Shown in pieces: positions 37,709-43,687 of a stretch of 48,648 bases of DNA (position 1 is the first letter of the stretch; each line of letters starts with the position of its first letter). Source of the stretch: Ruminococcus sp. GTDB taxonomy: Bacteria > Bacillota > Clostridia > Oscillospirales > Acutalibacteraceae. The position numbers were made by a program, and so were the translations under genes. The stretch lies in assembly GCA_017404665.1 (NCBI GenBank), contig JAFRBX010000064.1, forward strand, positions 1 through 48,648. Direction: 5' to 3'. Below the pieces are notes generated by a model that was not told the DNA's origin, made no database searches, and saw only the letters and a list, made by a program, of their open reading frames with translations.

Positions 37709-38317
37709 CATCCATCTTATCAATCCTCAAAAAGCTCAGGGAAAGTAATCAGATACGCTCTGCATCATTTTCTCGGAAGCGACGAGAACGACTATACCTA
37801 TGAGGCGCTCAAGCTGTTCATGATGGGCGCGATCAAAAGGGTGTTCGAACCGGGGTGCAAGTTTGAGAATATGCTCTGCTTAGTCGGCGGTCAGGGCGCG
37901 GGTAAAAGTACGTTCTTCCGCTTTATGGCAATCAAAGATGAATGGTTCTCCGACGACCTGCGAAAGCTGGATGACGAGAACGTCTACCGCAAGTTGCAGG
38001 GTCACTGGATCATAGAGATGTCCGAGATGATCGCCACCGCGAACGCCAAGAGCATTGAGGATATCAAATCCTTTCTCAGCCGTCAGAAGGAGACCTACAA
38101 GGTGCCGTATGAGACCCATCCGGCGGACAGGCTTCGCCAATGTGTCTTTGCCGGTACGACCAACCGTCAGGATTTTCTGCCGCGGGATCGGACAGGGAAC
38201 AGGCGATTCATTAGCCGCTTATGCGGCGCAAGGGTTCCCTTGTACGGAGCTGTGCGAACGAAAGCTTTTCGAGGAAAAGCACCTCGCAGAGCGCACATAC
38301 AAAAATCGAAAGATTGA
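37709..38317 (+). pseudogene. VapE-type primase/helicase fragment
   Basis: The frame opens after a TAG at 37706 and reads ALHHFLGSDENDYTYEALKL, then MMGAIKRVFEPGCKF, a Walker A loop LVGGQGAGKSTF, WIIEMSEM and FAGTTNRQDFLPRD, ending the homology at TGNRRFI. These are hallmark segments of virulence-associated protein E / phage-type helicases. The N-terminal half is absent. After NRRFI the frame runs into unrelated sequence (SRLCGARVPLYG...), so both ends are lost. It marks a decayed prophage or integrative element at the island's left border. Confidence 0.8.
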
Positions 38318-38647: not shown

Positions 38648-39439
38648 ATGCCATTATTACCAGGGACGCCCGGAGAACGGATCTCCGATCTGTGCAACGG
38701 CAGACCTATCTCGCAGAAGGAATTGGCTAAGAGGATTGGAGTATCCGCTCCCCAACTAAGCCGAATTGTTAGCGGTGAGACTAAGACGCTCAGCAGCGAT
38801 ATACTGATAGCTGTCGCAAAAGAATTCAAGGTAACTACTGATTACATATTGGGATTATCCGAAGTCAGCTCCCGCAAAAGCTATGACATATTCGAGATGG
38901 GGTTTTCCGAAGGCGCTGCAAAAGGTCTTGTGACCGGCGCGGTGGATATGGAGATCCTCAATCGGCTGTTGGAGCACAAGAATTTTCCTAAGCTGACGAA
39001 CCTGATTCGGATCTACTTTAAGGATACAGCGGCGAGAGGGATCATGGCACGAAATCAGATCATTGATATGGCGACCGCTTCTTTATCCGATTTTGTCAAA
39101 GAGCACCCGGAAAAGCGAGCAGAGGTACGAGAGGATCTGCAATTCATGAGTGCTCAAAAGCTGGGCGAGCATGAAGCGGAGACGGAGAAGATCAAGAATA
39201 TATTCCTTGCGATCCTGCGGGACATAAAAAAAGACATAGACAGCGGAAAGCAGCCCGAAAAGACTGCCTCCGCTGCTATGATCCAAGCGATACAGGACGA
39301 GATTAGGGAACGCGATCCGAAAACGCTCACAAAAGACGACGTCACGGAAATCGTCGTCAACCAGCTCGGTCTGGTTGCCCCGATGGGAGAGAAAACCACT
39401 GGTCTATTTAGAAAGCTATTAAAGGGTATGATGAAATAG
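38648..39439 (+). CDS. HTH regulator with long helical C-terminal region
   Basis: This 263-residue protein has a Cro/CI-type HTH (about 20-70, SQKELAKRIGVSAPQLSRIV). A mostly helical C-terminal region (75-263) ends in basic FRKLLKGMMK. I do not recognise the C-terminal part; proteins of this form are common on clostridial mobile elements (recalled). CGAGGAGGCGTATACC precedes the ATG. It sits between the VapE scar and the methyltransferase gene in the same direction, and two 12-bp direct repeats lie upstream. Confidence 0.75.
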   Translation: MPLLPGTPGERISDLCNGRPISQKELAKRIGVSAPQLSRIVSGETKTLSSDILIAVAKEFKVTTDYILGLSEVSSRKSYDIFEMGFSEGAAKGLVTGAVDMEILNRLLEHKNFPKLTNLIRIYFKDTAARGIMARNQIIDMATASLSDFVKEHPEKRAEVREDLQFMSAQKLGEHEAETEKIKNIFLAILRDIKKDIDSGKQPEKTASAAMIQAIQDEIRERDPKTLTKDDVTEIVVNQLGLVAPMGEKTTGLFRKLLKGMMK

Positions 39440-39548: not shown

Positions 39549-39577
39549 TTGCTTTTATTCGCGAATCGGTATATAAT
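39549..39577 (+). promoter_or_regulatory. Promoter of the dual-methyltransferase gene
   Basis: TTGCTT (39549-39554), a 17-nt spacer and TATAAT (39572-39577), 30 bp before the GTG start. The leader is very short. Confidence 0.7.
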
Positions 39578-39606: not shown

Positions 39607-41796
39607 GTGAATTTAATTAGTGTAGCACAGACAGCTGAAAAGTGGCAGATATCACCGAAACGAGTTCAGGTATTATGTAACGAAGGACGTATCGATGGCG
39701 CACAGCGAGTCGGTAATCGATGGACGATTCCAGATAATGCTGAGAAACCACTTGATGCCAGAAAAAAGGTAGATACAAATCCAAGAAGAGTAAACAGTAA
39801 TATTCAGATCGAGCGCGTATGGGCGATGCCGAACAAGAATACCTTTGACATCAAGCCGATCCATGAACTGATAGTTGAAGAGTTGACTGATGGATTATGG
39901 ATTGATCCCTTTGCCAACACTAACAAGCTCGCAAGCGTTACCAATGACCTCAATCCGGATTATGATACCGATTATCATATGGATGCGTTGGACTTTATGA
40001 AAATGTTTGACAGCGATTCGGTTGATGGTGTGCTGTACGATCCGCCGTATTCGCCCAGACAGGTCAGCGAATGCTATAACAATGTCGGCTATAATGTTAC
40101 TTGGGATACGACAAAAGCCTCCTTCTGGGGCAATCATAAAAGAGAGATTTCCCGTATCGTAAAAATAGGCGGTAAGGTTATCACCTTCGGCTGGAACAGC
40201 GGGGGCATCGGATATAAGTATGGCTTTGAAATCGAGCGTATTCTGTTGGTACCTCATGGCGGATGGCACAACGATACTATCTGTACAGTTGAGGTGAAGA
40301 CGCATGAACCTGAGAAGCCTGCTCCTAAACTGGAGGATTTACACGTTGGTTCTCTGTTTGACAGCACGACAGAATCCGAATATGACAATCAGCTGATTCA
40401 GGTCCTGCAATCTCTTCCGGTTGATTTCTGGGATTTCAAAAATGATGACGTTCGTGAATACACACACGGCATCCATAATTACCCTGCGATGATGGTGTCC
40501 CCCATCAGCCGCAATATCCTCCGGATCATGAAGGAGATCAAGCCGATCCATTCTGTCCTCGATCCTTTTATGGGTTCAGGAACCGTTTTGGTTGAGAGTA
40601 TGCTCGCCGGAGTGGATGCGATATATGGCAGCGATATCAATCCATTTGCTGTATTCCTCAGCAAGGTAAAAACTACCGCTTTGGATATCAACCTTCTGCA
40701 GGCTGAGGTACAGCGGCTATATGATAGTATCGAACAGCGCTATTGTGATAACGATATTCAGATTGATGGCGTTGATGATATTATGCGTCATTCCTATGAC
40801 TTGGATTTAACTGCGAAAGACGGTTGGGGCAAGAGCGCACCGATGTATCTGACCAGATATACGGATGACAATCAAATCAAGATAGCTGTTCCGGATTTCA
40901 AGAATATCGGATACTGGTTTAAGCCGAAAGTGATTCTGTTCCTTTCTATCATCAAAGAAGAGATAAACAAGATAGAGAATCCCGAAATCCGCAACTTCAT
41001 ATTCGTTGCATTCAGTGAGACGATCCGCTTTGTGTCCAACCGCAGAAACGGCGAGTTCAAAATGTTCCGAATGCCGGCACCTAAGGTTGATTCCTTTGAA
41101 CCCGACGTTATAAAGGAATTTACCACGATCCTCGACAGGAACATCGAGAAAATGAATTCGTTTAACGAAGTCTGTGAAGAGAACGACGTCCATTCCACGG
41201 TAAACGTTCTGAGCAATGATGCTTCTGTCCTTCAGGATGTACCGGATGATTCTATCGACCTCGTGATTACTTCTCCTCCGTATGGCGACAGCAGGACAAC
41301 TGTAGCGTACGGTGAGTATAGCCGTTTATCATTACAGTGGCTTGATCTGTTTGAACTATCCGAAAAGGATATCATGGGGATTGATAAGTCGCTGATGGGC
41401 GGCGTAAAATTCCGTAACGGCTTTGAGTACATAGTTTCCAGCAAGATATTAAGGGAATCCTTAGAGCGTATCAAGGATATCGACTTGGAACGCGCAGGCG
41501 ATGTATACAGTTTCTACCTTGACTTAGAGAAAACCATCAAGACGATAGCGCAGAAAACAAAACCGGGCGGTTATCAGTTCTGGGTCATCGGAAACCGGAC
41601 GGTGAAAGGTGAACTCCTGCTGACAGATCAGATCATCACAGAAATCGCTGAGCATTACGGTATGGAGTATGTATATACTGTTGACCGAAATATCATCAAC
41701 AAGGTTATGCCTTCACAGAATTCTCCAACAAATGAAACTGGTGCGAAGGCGTCAACCATGACAAATGAACATATTGTTGTACTGAGAAAGAAATAA
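39607..41796 (+). CDS. HTH-fused dual DNA methyltransferase of an R-M system
   Basis: This 729-residue protein is built from three parts. Residues 1-45 are a MerR/excisionase-like HTH (AQTAEKWQISPKRVQVLCNE). Residues about 90-235 are a compact methyltransferase module with DPFAN (100-104) and DPPYSPRQVSECY (145-157). Residues about 285-729 are a second module with AdoMet-binding DPFMGSGT (319-326), SDINPFAVFLSK, and catalytic TSPPYGDS (555-562), as in amino-methylating (N4-cytosine or N6-adenine) enzymes. Motif I precedes motif IV, unlike the beta class typical of TSPPY enzymes. By context it protects DNA from the two nucleases encoded convergently. The start is a GTG at 39607 with a weak ribosome-binding site. 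Confidence 0.88.
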   Translation: MNLISVAQTAEKWQISPKRVQVLCNEGRIDGAQRVGNRWTIPDNAEKPLDARKKVDTNPRRVNSNIQIERVWAMPNKNTFDIKPIHELIVEELTDGLWIDPFANTNKLASVTNDLNPDYDTDYHMDALDFMKMFDSDSVDGVLYDPPYSPRQVSECYNNVGYNVTWDTTKASFWGNHKREISRIVKIGGKVITFGWNSGGIGYKYGFEIERILLVPHGGWHNDTICTVEVKTHEPEKPAPKLEDLHVGSLFDSTTESEYDNQLIQVLQSLPVDFWDFKNDDVREYTHGIHNYPAMMVSPISRNILRIMKEIKPIHSVLDPFMGSGTVLVESMLAGVDAIYGSDINPFAVFLSKVKTTALDINLLQAEVQRLYDSIEQRYCDNDIQIDGVDDIMRHSYDLDLTAKDGWGKSAPMYLTRYTDDNQIKIAVPDFKNIGYWFKPKVILFLSIIKEEINKIENPEIRNFIFVAFSETIRFVSNRRNGEFKMFRMPAPKVDSFEPDVIKEFTTILDRNIEKMNSFNEVCEENDVHSTVNVLSNDASVLQDVPDDSIDLVITSPPYGDSRTTVAYGEYSRLSLQWLDLFELSEKDIMGIDKSLMGGVKFRNGFEYIVSSKILRESLERIKDIDLERAGDVYSFYLDLEKTIKTIAQKTKPGGYQFWVIGNRTVKGELLLTDQIITEIAEHYGMEYVYTVDRNIINKVMPSQNSPTNETGAKASTMTNEHIVVLRKK

Positions 41797-41801
41797 AAAA
41801 C

Positions 41802-41834
41802 TACTGCCAAAGATATACGCTGTCTTTGGCAGTA
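41802..41834. terminator. Bidirectional terminator between methyltransferase and nuclease genes
   Basis: Perfect 12-bp arms TACTGCCAAAGA (41802-41813) and TCTTTGGCAGTA (41823-41834) with a 9-nt loop. The minus strand has a strong T-tract (TTTTTTATTT). Confidence 0.85.
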
Positions 41835-41838
41835 TTCA

Positions 41839-42648
41839 TTAATACAGGCTATTAATATGGTTTATGACGTTCTCAAATGATCTGATTGAACCATCTTCAA
41901 CATCGGGCTTTGCAACATAAGATTGATCAAAGAAATTAAACATGGCGGCAATCTGTGGTTGTCCAATTTCATCATAAAAATCCGAAGTTACAAAGCACAT
42001 ACAGATTTGTCGTTGAGGATGGTAATCTAAGTGATACTTGTTTGCAGGACAGCTAGCTGTAGTGCTTTTGTGTTCACAATCACATGTTGCAATATCGCAC
42101 AGCAGCTTCCATTTAAACGTTTGACCCGCTCGTTCTCTACAGGAGGTCTTACACGAGAAATTGATAATGGGAGAATGAGTATCAAACGGCGAATAGATAA
42201 GCACGTCAGAATCTGGCTTTTGCACGTCATCGCCAACTCTGATAACGGCATAATCATCAAGAATCTTTTTAGTAGATGTTGTGGCAACGACTTCTCTTTC
42301 TATATTGCCCAGTACCACATTCTTTGCCAGAGTATAGGCAACAAACTGTTGAAAGATATTCCCTGCAGCAGATTTTCTTGCTTGTGACGCATCTGAAATA
42401 ATTCCGCTGTTAACGCGTTGCTGAATAAACTCTTCTACTAATGGCTGCGCTGTACGCATAATCCCGGATAGATAAGAAAGGATTTTGATATATCCAACTC
42501 TCTGTGGTTCAGCTACTCCTGCTCGTTGCAGTTCCGTAACGATTTCAGAGAGCCTAGTATTATAGGCAGGAAGTGCGGCAGAAAAATAGTTGTTCCTTTC
42601 TAGTTTTCGGATGAGTTTATTACACTCGCTTATACAGTTAACTGGCAT
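41839..42648 (-). CDS. Second restriction endonuclease, PD-(D/E)xK type (BsaWI-like?)
   Basis: This 269-residue protein has an N-terminal helical half and a nuclease-like half with KPDSDVLIYSP (Asp146) followed by NFSCKTSCRERAGQTFKWKL (Lys167, Arg-Glu-Arg). PD...CKTxxRERxxQxxKW is the pattern I associate with some type II enzymes such as the BsaWI group; this is from memory and uncertain. Next comes a Cys/His-rich insert (CDIATCDCEHKSTTASC, 184-200) that could bind zinc. GAGGTATAG precedes the ATG. It lies 7 bp after the MvaI/BcnI-type nuclease gene in the same operon. Confidence 0.7.
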   Translation of the reverse strand: MPVNCISECNKLIRKLERNNYFSAALPAYNTRLSEIVTELQRAGVAEPQRVGYIKILSYLSGIMRTAQPLVEEFIQQRVNSGIISDASQARKSAAGNIFQQFVAYTLAKNVVLGNIEREVVATTSTKKILDDYAVIRVGDDVQKPDSDVLIYSPFDTHSPIINFSCKTSCRERAGQTFKWKLLCDIATCDCEHKSTTASCPANKYHLDYHPQRQICMCFVTSDFYDEIGQPQIAAMFNFFDQSYVAKPDVEDGSIRSFENVINHINSLY

Positions 42649-42655
42649 CTATACC

Positions 42656-43375
42656 TCAAACAATTCTGTTGTTTATCTTAAACAATAATGGTTGGTCAAC
42701 TTCACGGATTCTGAAGCCGGTACCGTGATCGTGTGTACGACCGTCAGGATACTGTCCGATTCTCAGGTCAATGAAGATCTTTCCTTGCTCGAGCAGTTCT
42801 ATCATTGCTTCATAGTTGAAACCGCTGACCTCATAGGCTTCTTTGTAGAAAAACTCTTCGTTTGCTCCAGAACCGCGGCTCTCAGCTTTTGCGTAGACGA
42901 ACTTGTTTTTGTACTTCTTCTCAAACGCCTTGCGCAGCGATTCCTTATCCCAGAATACATTTTCAACTTCAGTCTCAGAAGCAATGGAGATCTTCTGCTT
43001 ATCGCATACGATCCGGAGCTTCTTTCCAGTGTCGGCAATCGGGACAAAACGCGCTGCCGTTAATGTGGAGTGTAATACCTTTTCGTCATTATCGTAGGCG
43101 CTGCTGGAATAACCGTATTTCTCTCTGAGGTATGTATTTGCTCTGGCAGGCTGTGGTGTACGAGTAAACATTGTCAGCATACTCTGCGAGTTCATTCTGC
43201 AAGATTTCAGCTCGTAATCGCCGAAGTCAGGACCATCTATATTGTTCTCTGCAATACCCAACAAATCCTCTAGTGTCTTTCCAATACCGGTCGGGCCGGA
43301 ACGATGAGTTCTAATCCAACCCTTGTCTTTGATTTTTGTATATTCACGAATGAAATCATCAAGTGTTATTATCAT
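42656..43375 (-). CDS. MvaI/BcnI-family restriction endonuclease
   Basis: This 239-residue protein carries the family block THRSGPTGIGKTLEDLLGI followed by GPDFGDYELKSCR, with Asp50, Glu55 and Lys57 as the PD-(D/E)xK catalytic triad. The C-terminal YPDGRTHDHGTGFRI segment also fits. By family MvaI cuts CCWGG and BcnI CCSGG, usually as monomers that nick each strand in turn; the site here cannot be read from sequence. It lies between the controller gene (3 bp upstream) and the second nuclease gene (7 bp downstream). Confidence 0.88.
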   Translation of the reverse strand: MIITLDDFIREYTKIKDKGWIRTHRSGPTGIGKTLEDLLGIAENNIDGPDFGDYELKSCRMNSQSMLTMFTRTPQPARANTYLREKYGYSSSAYDNDEKVLHSTLTAARFVPIADTGKKLRIVCDKQKISIASETEVENVFWDKESLRKAFEKKYKNKFVYAKAESRGSGANEEFFYKEAYEVSGFNYEAMIELLEQGKIFIDLRIGQYPDGRTHDHGTGFRIREVDQPLLFKINNRIV

Positions 43376-43378
43376 AGT

Positions 43379-43594
43379 TTATTCCTCGCTCTCTATGAAT
43401 AATTTATATGTTTCTACGCCTAACGCATCAGCGATTTTTTGGATGTTTTCAAGTGAAATGCTCCTTCGATAACACTCTATAGCGCTGATATAAGTTCTAT
43501 GTAATCCACACTTTTCTGCAAAAGACTCTTGCGAAATACCAAGTTGATTGCGATAATGCTTTACGTTCTTGCCAAATACTCTGGGAATGTCCAT
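43379..43594 (-). CDS. R-M controller protein (HTH)
   Basis: This 71-residue protein is a single HTH domain: NVKHYRNQLGISQESFAEKC, then GLHRTYISAIECYRRSISLE. That pattern (LHRTYIS-IE-x-x-R-x-ISL-x-NI-x-KIADAL) is characteristic of C proteins that delay nuclease expression in R-M systems. AAGGAGGAATGTATCA precedes the ATG. It leads the C-nuclease-nuclease operon, which is divergent from the Qat operon across a 170-bp region. Confidence 0.88.
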   Translation of the reverse strand: MDIPRVFGKNVKHYRNQLGISQESFAEKCGLHRTYISAIECYRRSISLENIQKIADALGVETYKLFIESEE

Positions 43595-43632: not shown

Positions 43633-43656
43633 ACACAATAAATCTACACACAATAA
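43633..43656. promoter_or_regulatory. Direct repeats in the divergent controller/Qat region
   Basis: ACACAATAA occurs at 43633-43641 and 43648-43656 (15-bp period), upstream of a TATACT -10-like box for the controller gene (43618-43623, minus strand). TAAC-N9-GTTA (43613-43629) overlaps that box. Either could be a controller-protein site. Confidence 0.45.
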
Positions 43657-43687
43657 GTAACATATCATTATCAATAACTACAATATC

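Follow-up and report, generated by a model that had tools for sequence, protein, structure and literature searches.

A Ruminococcus Type II restriction-modification locus with a fused methyltransferase and a second nuclease that may share its guardian

We examined a restriction-modification (R-M) locus at positions 39607-43594 of a 48,648-nucleotide stretch of Ruminococcus sp. DNA (the window; contig C42 of the 2.47-Mb host genome). A fused methyltransferase gene on the forward strand stands tail to tail against three reverse-strand genes, which encode a controller (C) protein and two restriction endonucleases, here called RE1 and RE2. Our analysis indicates that the system is a genuine and conserved one of Type II, to which three unusual features have been added. 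Most interesting among them is a second nuclease under a putatively shared guardian, a reading that depends on deduced specificities. No paper describing this gene set was found in the open-access literature (most subscription journals lie outside that scope, and REBASE was not covered).

Genes and protein families at the locus

The coding features are as follows.

39607-41796, +: fused methyltransferase open reading frame (ORF), 729 amino acids (aa), GTG start
39607..39786, +: N-terminal HTH_17/excisionase-like DNA-binding domain (aa 1-60; Pfam HTH_17, E 2.1e-6, isolated domain)
39802..40311, +: small phage-type methyltransferase module with DPPYS (aa 66-235; phrog_11619, E 2.6e-52)
40381..41793 (stop codon to 41796), +: SPPY-type methyltransferase module (aa 259-729), N4-methylcytosine (m4C) by motif
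41839-42648, -: RE2 ORF, 269 aa, a BsaWI/PfoI-like (CCGG-family) restriction endonuclease; an optional gene, beginning 7 bases past RE1
42656-43375, -: RE1 ORF, 239 aa, an MvaI-like restriction endonuclease
43379-43594, -: C protein ORF, 71 aa (PADLOC Control_protein, E 1.9e-22)

As the original prediction had stated, a single polypeptide carries a helix-turn-helix (HTH) domain and two methyltransferase modules. The motifs DPPYS (residues 145-149), DPF-GSGT (319-326, with position 322 varying) and TSPPYGDS (555-562) are invariant in a 23-row alignment that includes the window, and the best PADLOC match of the whole 729-aa protein is a Type II methyltransferase (E 6.8e-125). The SPPY motif belongs to m4C enzymes and the DPPY motif to N6-methyladenine (m6A) enzymes. 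The protein shows amino-methyltransferase motifs and families and no DNA_methylase match, which argues against a 5-methylcytosine (m5C) enzyme of the M.SsoII type. Both predicted modules are present, but motif I of the N-terminal one lacks the usual GxG loop (it reads DPFAN-x-N), so this is a small and unusual module rather than a second full-size methyltransferase; it would leave little room for a target-recognition domain.

The facing operon of controller and two nucleases was confirmed, as was the claim that the nucleases are of unlike families, one of them MvaI/BcnI-like. RE1 matches Pfam MvaI_BcnI (PF15515; E 2.6e-48, 165.5 bits against a cut-off of 25), with R.MvaI as its best match (118 bits; R.BcnI, 47 bits), and its PD-x4-ELK active site (P49 D50 ... 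E55 L56 K57) is invariant in 14 rows. The BcnI active site has the same four-residue spacing (PMC4081073, in part). With the MvaI system the locus shares this nuclease family, the PD-x4-ExK active site and the likely site CCWGG; it differs in that its methyltransferase is fused to an HTH and a phage-type module, in its C protein and in its optional second nuclease. M.MvaI is an m4C enzyme. RE1 is predicted to cut unmethylated CCWGG.

RE2 falls into RE_BsaWI (PF18643; E 2.7e-9, 37.5 bits against a cut-off of 26.2). The same family was found in every copy tested (window, L064, L089, G984 and G1005), homologues reaching E values of 9.6e-14 and 8.9e-12 (L064 51.8 bits, L089 45.5 bits). The RE2 profile also matches PfoI (E 0.0015); no convincing second sequence match to a solved structure was found. 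In five aligned rows D146-x-D148...K167-x3-R171-E172-R173 is invariant, and here D146-x-D148 aligns with E167-x-D169 of PfoI and K167 with its K187. These are active-site residues of PfoI, in which a second acid precedes the Asp (PMC6344858, in part), and BsaWI has D145, K165 and R169-D170-R171 (PMC4652773, in part), a K-x3-R-D-R resembling the K-x3-R-E-R of RE2. RE2 thus combines the RE_BsaWI core with the catalytic Asp and Lys, then R-(D/E)R, of the CCGG family (EcoRII, PspGI, NgoMIV); it lacks the second acid that the canonical PD...K...D/E has after the Lys (none at K+10 to K+14), and its D-x-D instead matches the PfoI arrangement. It differs from CCGG-family enzymes in having no m5C partner in the locus and in its place within another enzyme's operon. 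We found no support for RE1 and RE2 as paralogues (profile-profile comparison, hhalign probability 0.3). An argument linking R91-K92 of RE2 to base-flipping enzymes was dropped, since a stand-alone relative has S at R91.

Gene content of related loci

A scan of the genome_contigs collection with two m4C-module peptide patterns gave 49 loci, a lower bound; with the window and G322 (L034) the tabulated set numbers 51. The loci are partly non-independent, the m4C rows of L034 and L086 being identical and G003 and G045 reappearing as L060 and L059. Tree building used only m4C rows that span more than 400 query positions and RE1 rows that span more than 180. Named relatives include Ruminococcus and Clostridiales metagenome-assembled genomes. 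The DPPYS module is fused in one frame to the m4C module in 27 of the 51 loci (21 with the HTH), including Anaeroglobus geminatus F0357 and Selenomonas artemidis DSM 19719; it is a separate neighbouring gene in 4 and absent from 20. Outside this set, the 31-kb Lactococcus lactis CV56 plasmid pCV56C (L280 455-3627) carries a fused HTH-DPPYS-m4C protein, an MvaI-like enzyme and C, and so offers the three-gene core in a tractable species. Because the same fusion recurs in these 27 loci and on the plasmid, it is no assembly error. In the Type II system MhoVII, too, a single polypeptide comprises two methyltransferases (PMC12898733, in part).

RE1 was matched in 39 of the 51 loci and RE2 in 4 (the window, L064, L065 and L089), and the core is therefore one methyltransferase and one MvaI-like nuclease. 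All four RE2 loci show the order C, RE1, RE2, methyltransferase gene end, with RE2 directly after RE1 and in the same direction; L089 gave no C match. L034 has a C-like ORF, though it is tabulated without C. The original prediction had held that homologues with a single nuclease would speak against its proposal of paired enzymes. Such homologues are the rule, since 35 of the 39 loci with RE1 have no RE2, but RE2 recurs in four loci with the same gene order. RE2 is absent from the interval between RE1 and the methyltransferase gene in the close relative L057, and likewise in G003 and G045. Twelve loci gave no RE1 match, several of them cut by contig ends. Others, L066 and the Brachyspira loci, have the appearance of solitary methyltransferases. 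For the solitary m4C-family members L075, L079, L080 (Brachyspira), L066, L087 and L095, the stretches fetched contain no nuclease match, and the genes listed beside them are ordinary chromosomal ones.

Since the locus combines two nucleases with two methyltransferase modules, the original prediction had also raised a heteromeric nuclease like BslI, or an asymmetric site handled one strand each. The heteromer could equally resemble BbvCI or LlaJI, and an asymmetric site would pair one module with one nuclease for each strand. LlaJI and MhoVII are precedents for such designs (PMC11779793 and PMC12898733, both in part), and LlaJI and the C. cellulovorans four-gene Type II system resemble the present locus in their two methyltransferases and two nucleases. 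The LlaJI nucleases act as a heterodimer, whereas here RE1 is usually alone; RE1 and m4C occur without DPPYS in 11 loci (the RE1 match is weak and partial in L104, distant in L088); and the stretches fetched from G984 and G1005 contain RE2 relatives but no RE1. Since the two nucleases do not always occur together, we rejected both designs on gene content and regard them as very improbable.

RE2 as a chance insertion was rejected, because it recurs at the same position in three places of the methyltransferase tree. On the RE1 tree, which has many open forks, the distribution of RE2 needs at least three changes, and placing the four RE2 loci in one clade gave p 0.012 in the approximately unbiased (AU) test, with long branches present. 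Another alternative is that RE2 is being lost and, as a passenger, has little if any activity. Its patchy distribution (4/51) would fit, as would the broken relatives in genomes G1005 and G1110; yet the reading frame is intact in 4 of 4 loci at these three separate places, the catalytic and recognition residues are invariant in the aligned rows, and the L064-L065 pair shows a ratio of nonsynonymous to synonymous change (dN/dS) of 0.25, weak evidence from 8 changes only. We therefore consider a passenger improbable. Extra or diverged MvaI-like pieces are found in L081 (8462-9029), L069 (8462-8776) and L114 (4776-5576 and 7909-8505). Those of L081 and L069 occupy the position that RE2 has in the window, and the slot between RE1 and the methyltransferase gene end may collect nucleases.

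The DPPYS module is 59-70% identical to proteins that stand alone in Streptococcus and Staphylococcus phages; three annotated phages encode it as a separate gene of about 170-176 residues. This phage family, strongly conserved and with a degenerate motif I, occupies 132 viral_contigs loci and occurs in jumbo, Staphylococcus and Streptococcus phages. We built a tree with the best 80 of the 132 and the three phages, more distant members being left out. One branch (SH-aLRT 89) separates all 35 R-M copies, 31 of them from the tabulated loci and 4 from viral contigs, from the 79 phage copies, which makes a single capture likely; the module was apparently captured once from phages. The m4C-module patterns found no match on viral contigs; nonetheless, 4 of 80 viral contigs bearing the DPPYS module carry m4C and RE1. 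Between the window and L057, whose methyltransferases are 91% identical, the DPPYS module is the slowest-evolving of the parts compared (96.5% identical, dN/dS 0.009, with dS near saturation); the figures are 91.7% and 0.03 for m4C, 92.1% and 0.059 for RE1, and 73.3% identity for the HTH.

Because RE1 and m4C occur in 11 loci without it, the DPPYS module looks dispensable for protection against RE1. We would guess, at somewhat less than even confidence, that it marks a motif other than the site of the system; a more tentative guess is that it marks the same site, and it is unlikely that it performs no methylation at all.

Promoter and operator elements

Four noncoding features accompany these genes.

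39549..39577, +: methyltransferase promoter, TTGCTT, 17-base spacer, TATAAT (read by eye)
39558-39573, +: conserved spacer element TTCGCNNNTCNNTATA between the -35 and -10 of that promoter
41803..41833, no strand: hairpin between the convergent genes (read by eye)
43635..43658, -: C-box-like double operator ACTTATTGTGTGTAGATTTATTGT upstream of C (aligned rows)

The promoter is absent from the promoter-scan list for the window. The element TTCGCNNNTCNNTATA was present in 18 of 21 HTH-bearing loci against 0 of 30 others (Fisher p 5e-11, kinship ignored), some of the 30 HTH-less rows being fragments in which the true gene start is not seen (L100, L102, L103). L070, L074, L075, L079 and L080 belong to the HTH-bearing clade without having the HTH, and in them the element is missing too. 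An exact copy is present on pCV56C. On the simplest reading of this co-occurrence, the HTH is probably an autorepressor of the methyltransferase promoter. M.SsoII and M.Ecl18kI similarly have an N-terminal DNA-binding region on the methyltransferase and a site, here putative, in their own promoter (PMC3978073 and PMC3695355, both in part). These are m5C enzymes that also activate the nuclease gene, whereas here the methyltransferase is SPPY-type, the genes converge and a separate C protein is present; the arrangement would work alike, without being a member of that group. We found no support for the HTH as a methyltransferase-specific domain, since other genomes have it on ORFs of between 71 and 556 aa.

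Nine aligned rows, the window included, show a recognisable C operator, most strictly conserved in its first half-site; it has one match in the window and zero in 100 shuffles. The locus thus has a C gene upstream of the nuclease genes together with a double operator, as in C-protein-controlled R-M systems. The hairpin, absent from terminator-scan results on the window, is possibly a shared terminator of the convergent genes; L057 has a similar hairpin 3' of its methyltransferase gene.

Specificity, protection and genomic setting

RE2 is rare. Both among the 98 genomes searched (its own included) and among 391 genomes of the class, only the window's genome has it. The 394 genomes of the order yielded five with RE2 relatives: the window's, G933 (probably the same genome as L089), G984, G1005 and, with a weak broken match, G1110. 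Viral contigs, plasmids and phages held neither RE2 nor relatives, one weak plasmid match (E 0.7) aside. In G984 the relative lies directly behind an m5C methyltransferase, as it does, in pieces, in G1005; no RE1, m4C or DPPYS match stands beside it in the fetched stretches. The best PDB matches of the G984 methyltransferase, with the target-recognition region aligned, are 3lx6 and 3me5 (270 and 269 bits, versus 220 for M.HhaI), which we take to be Dcm. Two plasmid relatives of this enzyme (51 and 54% identity) adjoin EcoRII-C enzymes (7e-54 and 3.4e-61), and a Shigella plasmid methyltransferase at 53% identity, presumably SsoII-like (CCNGG), is without the SKK-SLG segment common to the others in the alignment. 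The two stand-alone RE2 relatives thus resemble EcoRII/Dcm-type systems (CCWGG, m5C) in their methyltransferase. EcoRII and Dcm recognise CCWGG (PMC3874152, in part).

The present locus differs in this respect. A search with the G984 methyltransferase gave no match in G000 (the window's genome) or in those containing L064, L065 and L089, its positive being G984, the query's own genome; RE2 therefore appears to have been acquired without its guardian. A nuclease that seems to come from another system, without its own m5C methyltransferase, is most likely under the protection of the m4C module, and that module is likely to be the guardian of both nucleases.

Motif avoidance supports CCWGG as the site of the system, short of proof. 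In a 349-kb sample of the host (L191-L210 and the window), CCWGG was found at 0.17 of expectation and CCSGG at 0.88. Across samples of 58 to 349 kb, CCWGG stood at 0.14-0.25 in three carriers against 0.17-0.81 in ten non-carriers (Mann-Whitney one-sided p 0.014, kinship ignored). Seven of the ten non-carriers were covered by the RE1 search, which matched 2 of 61 genomes; G044, G046 and G058 count as non-carriers by the methyltransferase search, having no full-length match. GGCC stands at 0.14 of expectation in the host and at 0.08-0.45 in twelve other genus members sampled, pointing to another, widespread GGCC system.

From the observed gene content, conservation and domain families, the co-occurrence of HTH and operator, and the lack of any Dcm-type methyltransferase match, we infer, with moderate confidence, one Type II CCWGG system in which RE1 and RE2 are neoschizomers blocked by one m4C methyltransferase. 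EcoRII and MvaI are the textbook example of neoschizomers (PMC4081073, in part). In the proposed mechanism, the m4C module of the fused protein would methylate CCWGG, and RE1 would cut this site when unmethylated. RE2, taken from a Dcm/EcoRII-type system without the m5C methyltransferase, would most likely cut CCWGG as well and be blocked by the same m4C mark. With two unrelated nucleases behind one guardian, a phage should find it harder to escape through a modification or an inhibitor effective against just one of the two. The C protein would activate C-RE1-RE2 through the double operator, delaying the nucleases, and the HTH of the methyltransferase would bind between -35 and -10 and repress its own promoter. 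The DPPYS module would add a second methylation, not required against RE1.

Several observations count against this proposal. RE2 of the window is only 36-42% identical to its stand-alone relatives, and its site may therefore differ from theirs. A more distant RE_BsaWI protein in G795 (one of 2 matching genomes among 398 of the phylum) adjoins an SPPY-type methyltransferase, so that partners in the wider family need not be m5C enzymes. Avoidance of CCWGG is equally strong in some non-carriers (G044 0.17, G009 0.31, G012 0.32) and thus not specific to this system. CCGG and GCCGGC stand at 0.66 and 0.67 in the host, and CCGG at 0.32-0.84 in the other twelve genomes, so that RE2 may have a CCGG-type site; WCCGGW (0.93), TCCGGA, ACCGGT, RCCGGY, TCCNGGA (1.12) and WCCWGGW lie at 0.88-1.12 in the host and thus give no avoidance signal of RE2's own. 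On the regulatory side, the promoter element is missing from 3 of the 21 HTH loci, and the C-box, at up to 3 mismatches, from the Lactococcus plasmid.

These points bear on a further alternative. The original prediction had raised two merged R-M systems; here these would differ in their sites, the site of RE2 being guarded by the DPPYS module and that of RE1 by the m4C module. The low host CCGG would allow RE2 a site other than CCWGG; the DPPYS module is present in 4 of 4 RE2 loci (chance 0.13, given 31/51); and in the methyltransferase tree L089, with DPPYS and RE2, is sister to L088, with neither. Yet 27 of the 31 DPPYS-bearing loci are without RE2, as is the closest relative L057, which has DPPYS; the two stand-alone RE2 relatives use an m5C methyltransferase; and the capture of DPPYS looks single, whereas at least three changes must be assumed for RE2 on the RE1 tree. 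We consider this merger unlikely. What survives of the idea is a mosaic origin, RE2 seeming to come from a different system; it came, however, without its own m5C methyltransferase.

If the shared-guardian proposal is correct, an R-M system has gained a second, unrelated nuclease without a new methyltransferase, and a nuclease could be acquired alone when its site is already methylated. The operon would then hold a natural neoschizomer pair of different chemistry, in which defence against counter-modification by phages is directly testable, and a restriction system would have domesticated a methyltransferase module of phage origin. A more speculative extension, to which we give a low probability, treats the gap between RE1 and the methyltransferase gene as a nuclease-stacking slot, which foreign nucleases enter once the resident m4C methyltransferase protects their site, leaving two neoschizomers under a single guardian; CCWGG would in addition receive a second mark from the captured phage module, giving a two-lock self-recognition.

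The surroundings of the locus are those of what looks like a mobile defence module. On one side lie a VapE-like mobile-element gene fragment (37820-38317, +; Pfam VapE-like_dom, E 4.3e-51) and, downstream of it, an XRE-type regulator gene (38648-39439). A QatABCD anti-phage system (43739-48421, +) adjoins the other side: QatA, QatB and QatC were matched by PADLOC and NCBIfam, QatC above and QatA and QatB below the NCBIfam cut-off, and the TatD_DNase gene after QatC (2.1e-38) fits QatD.

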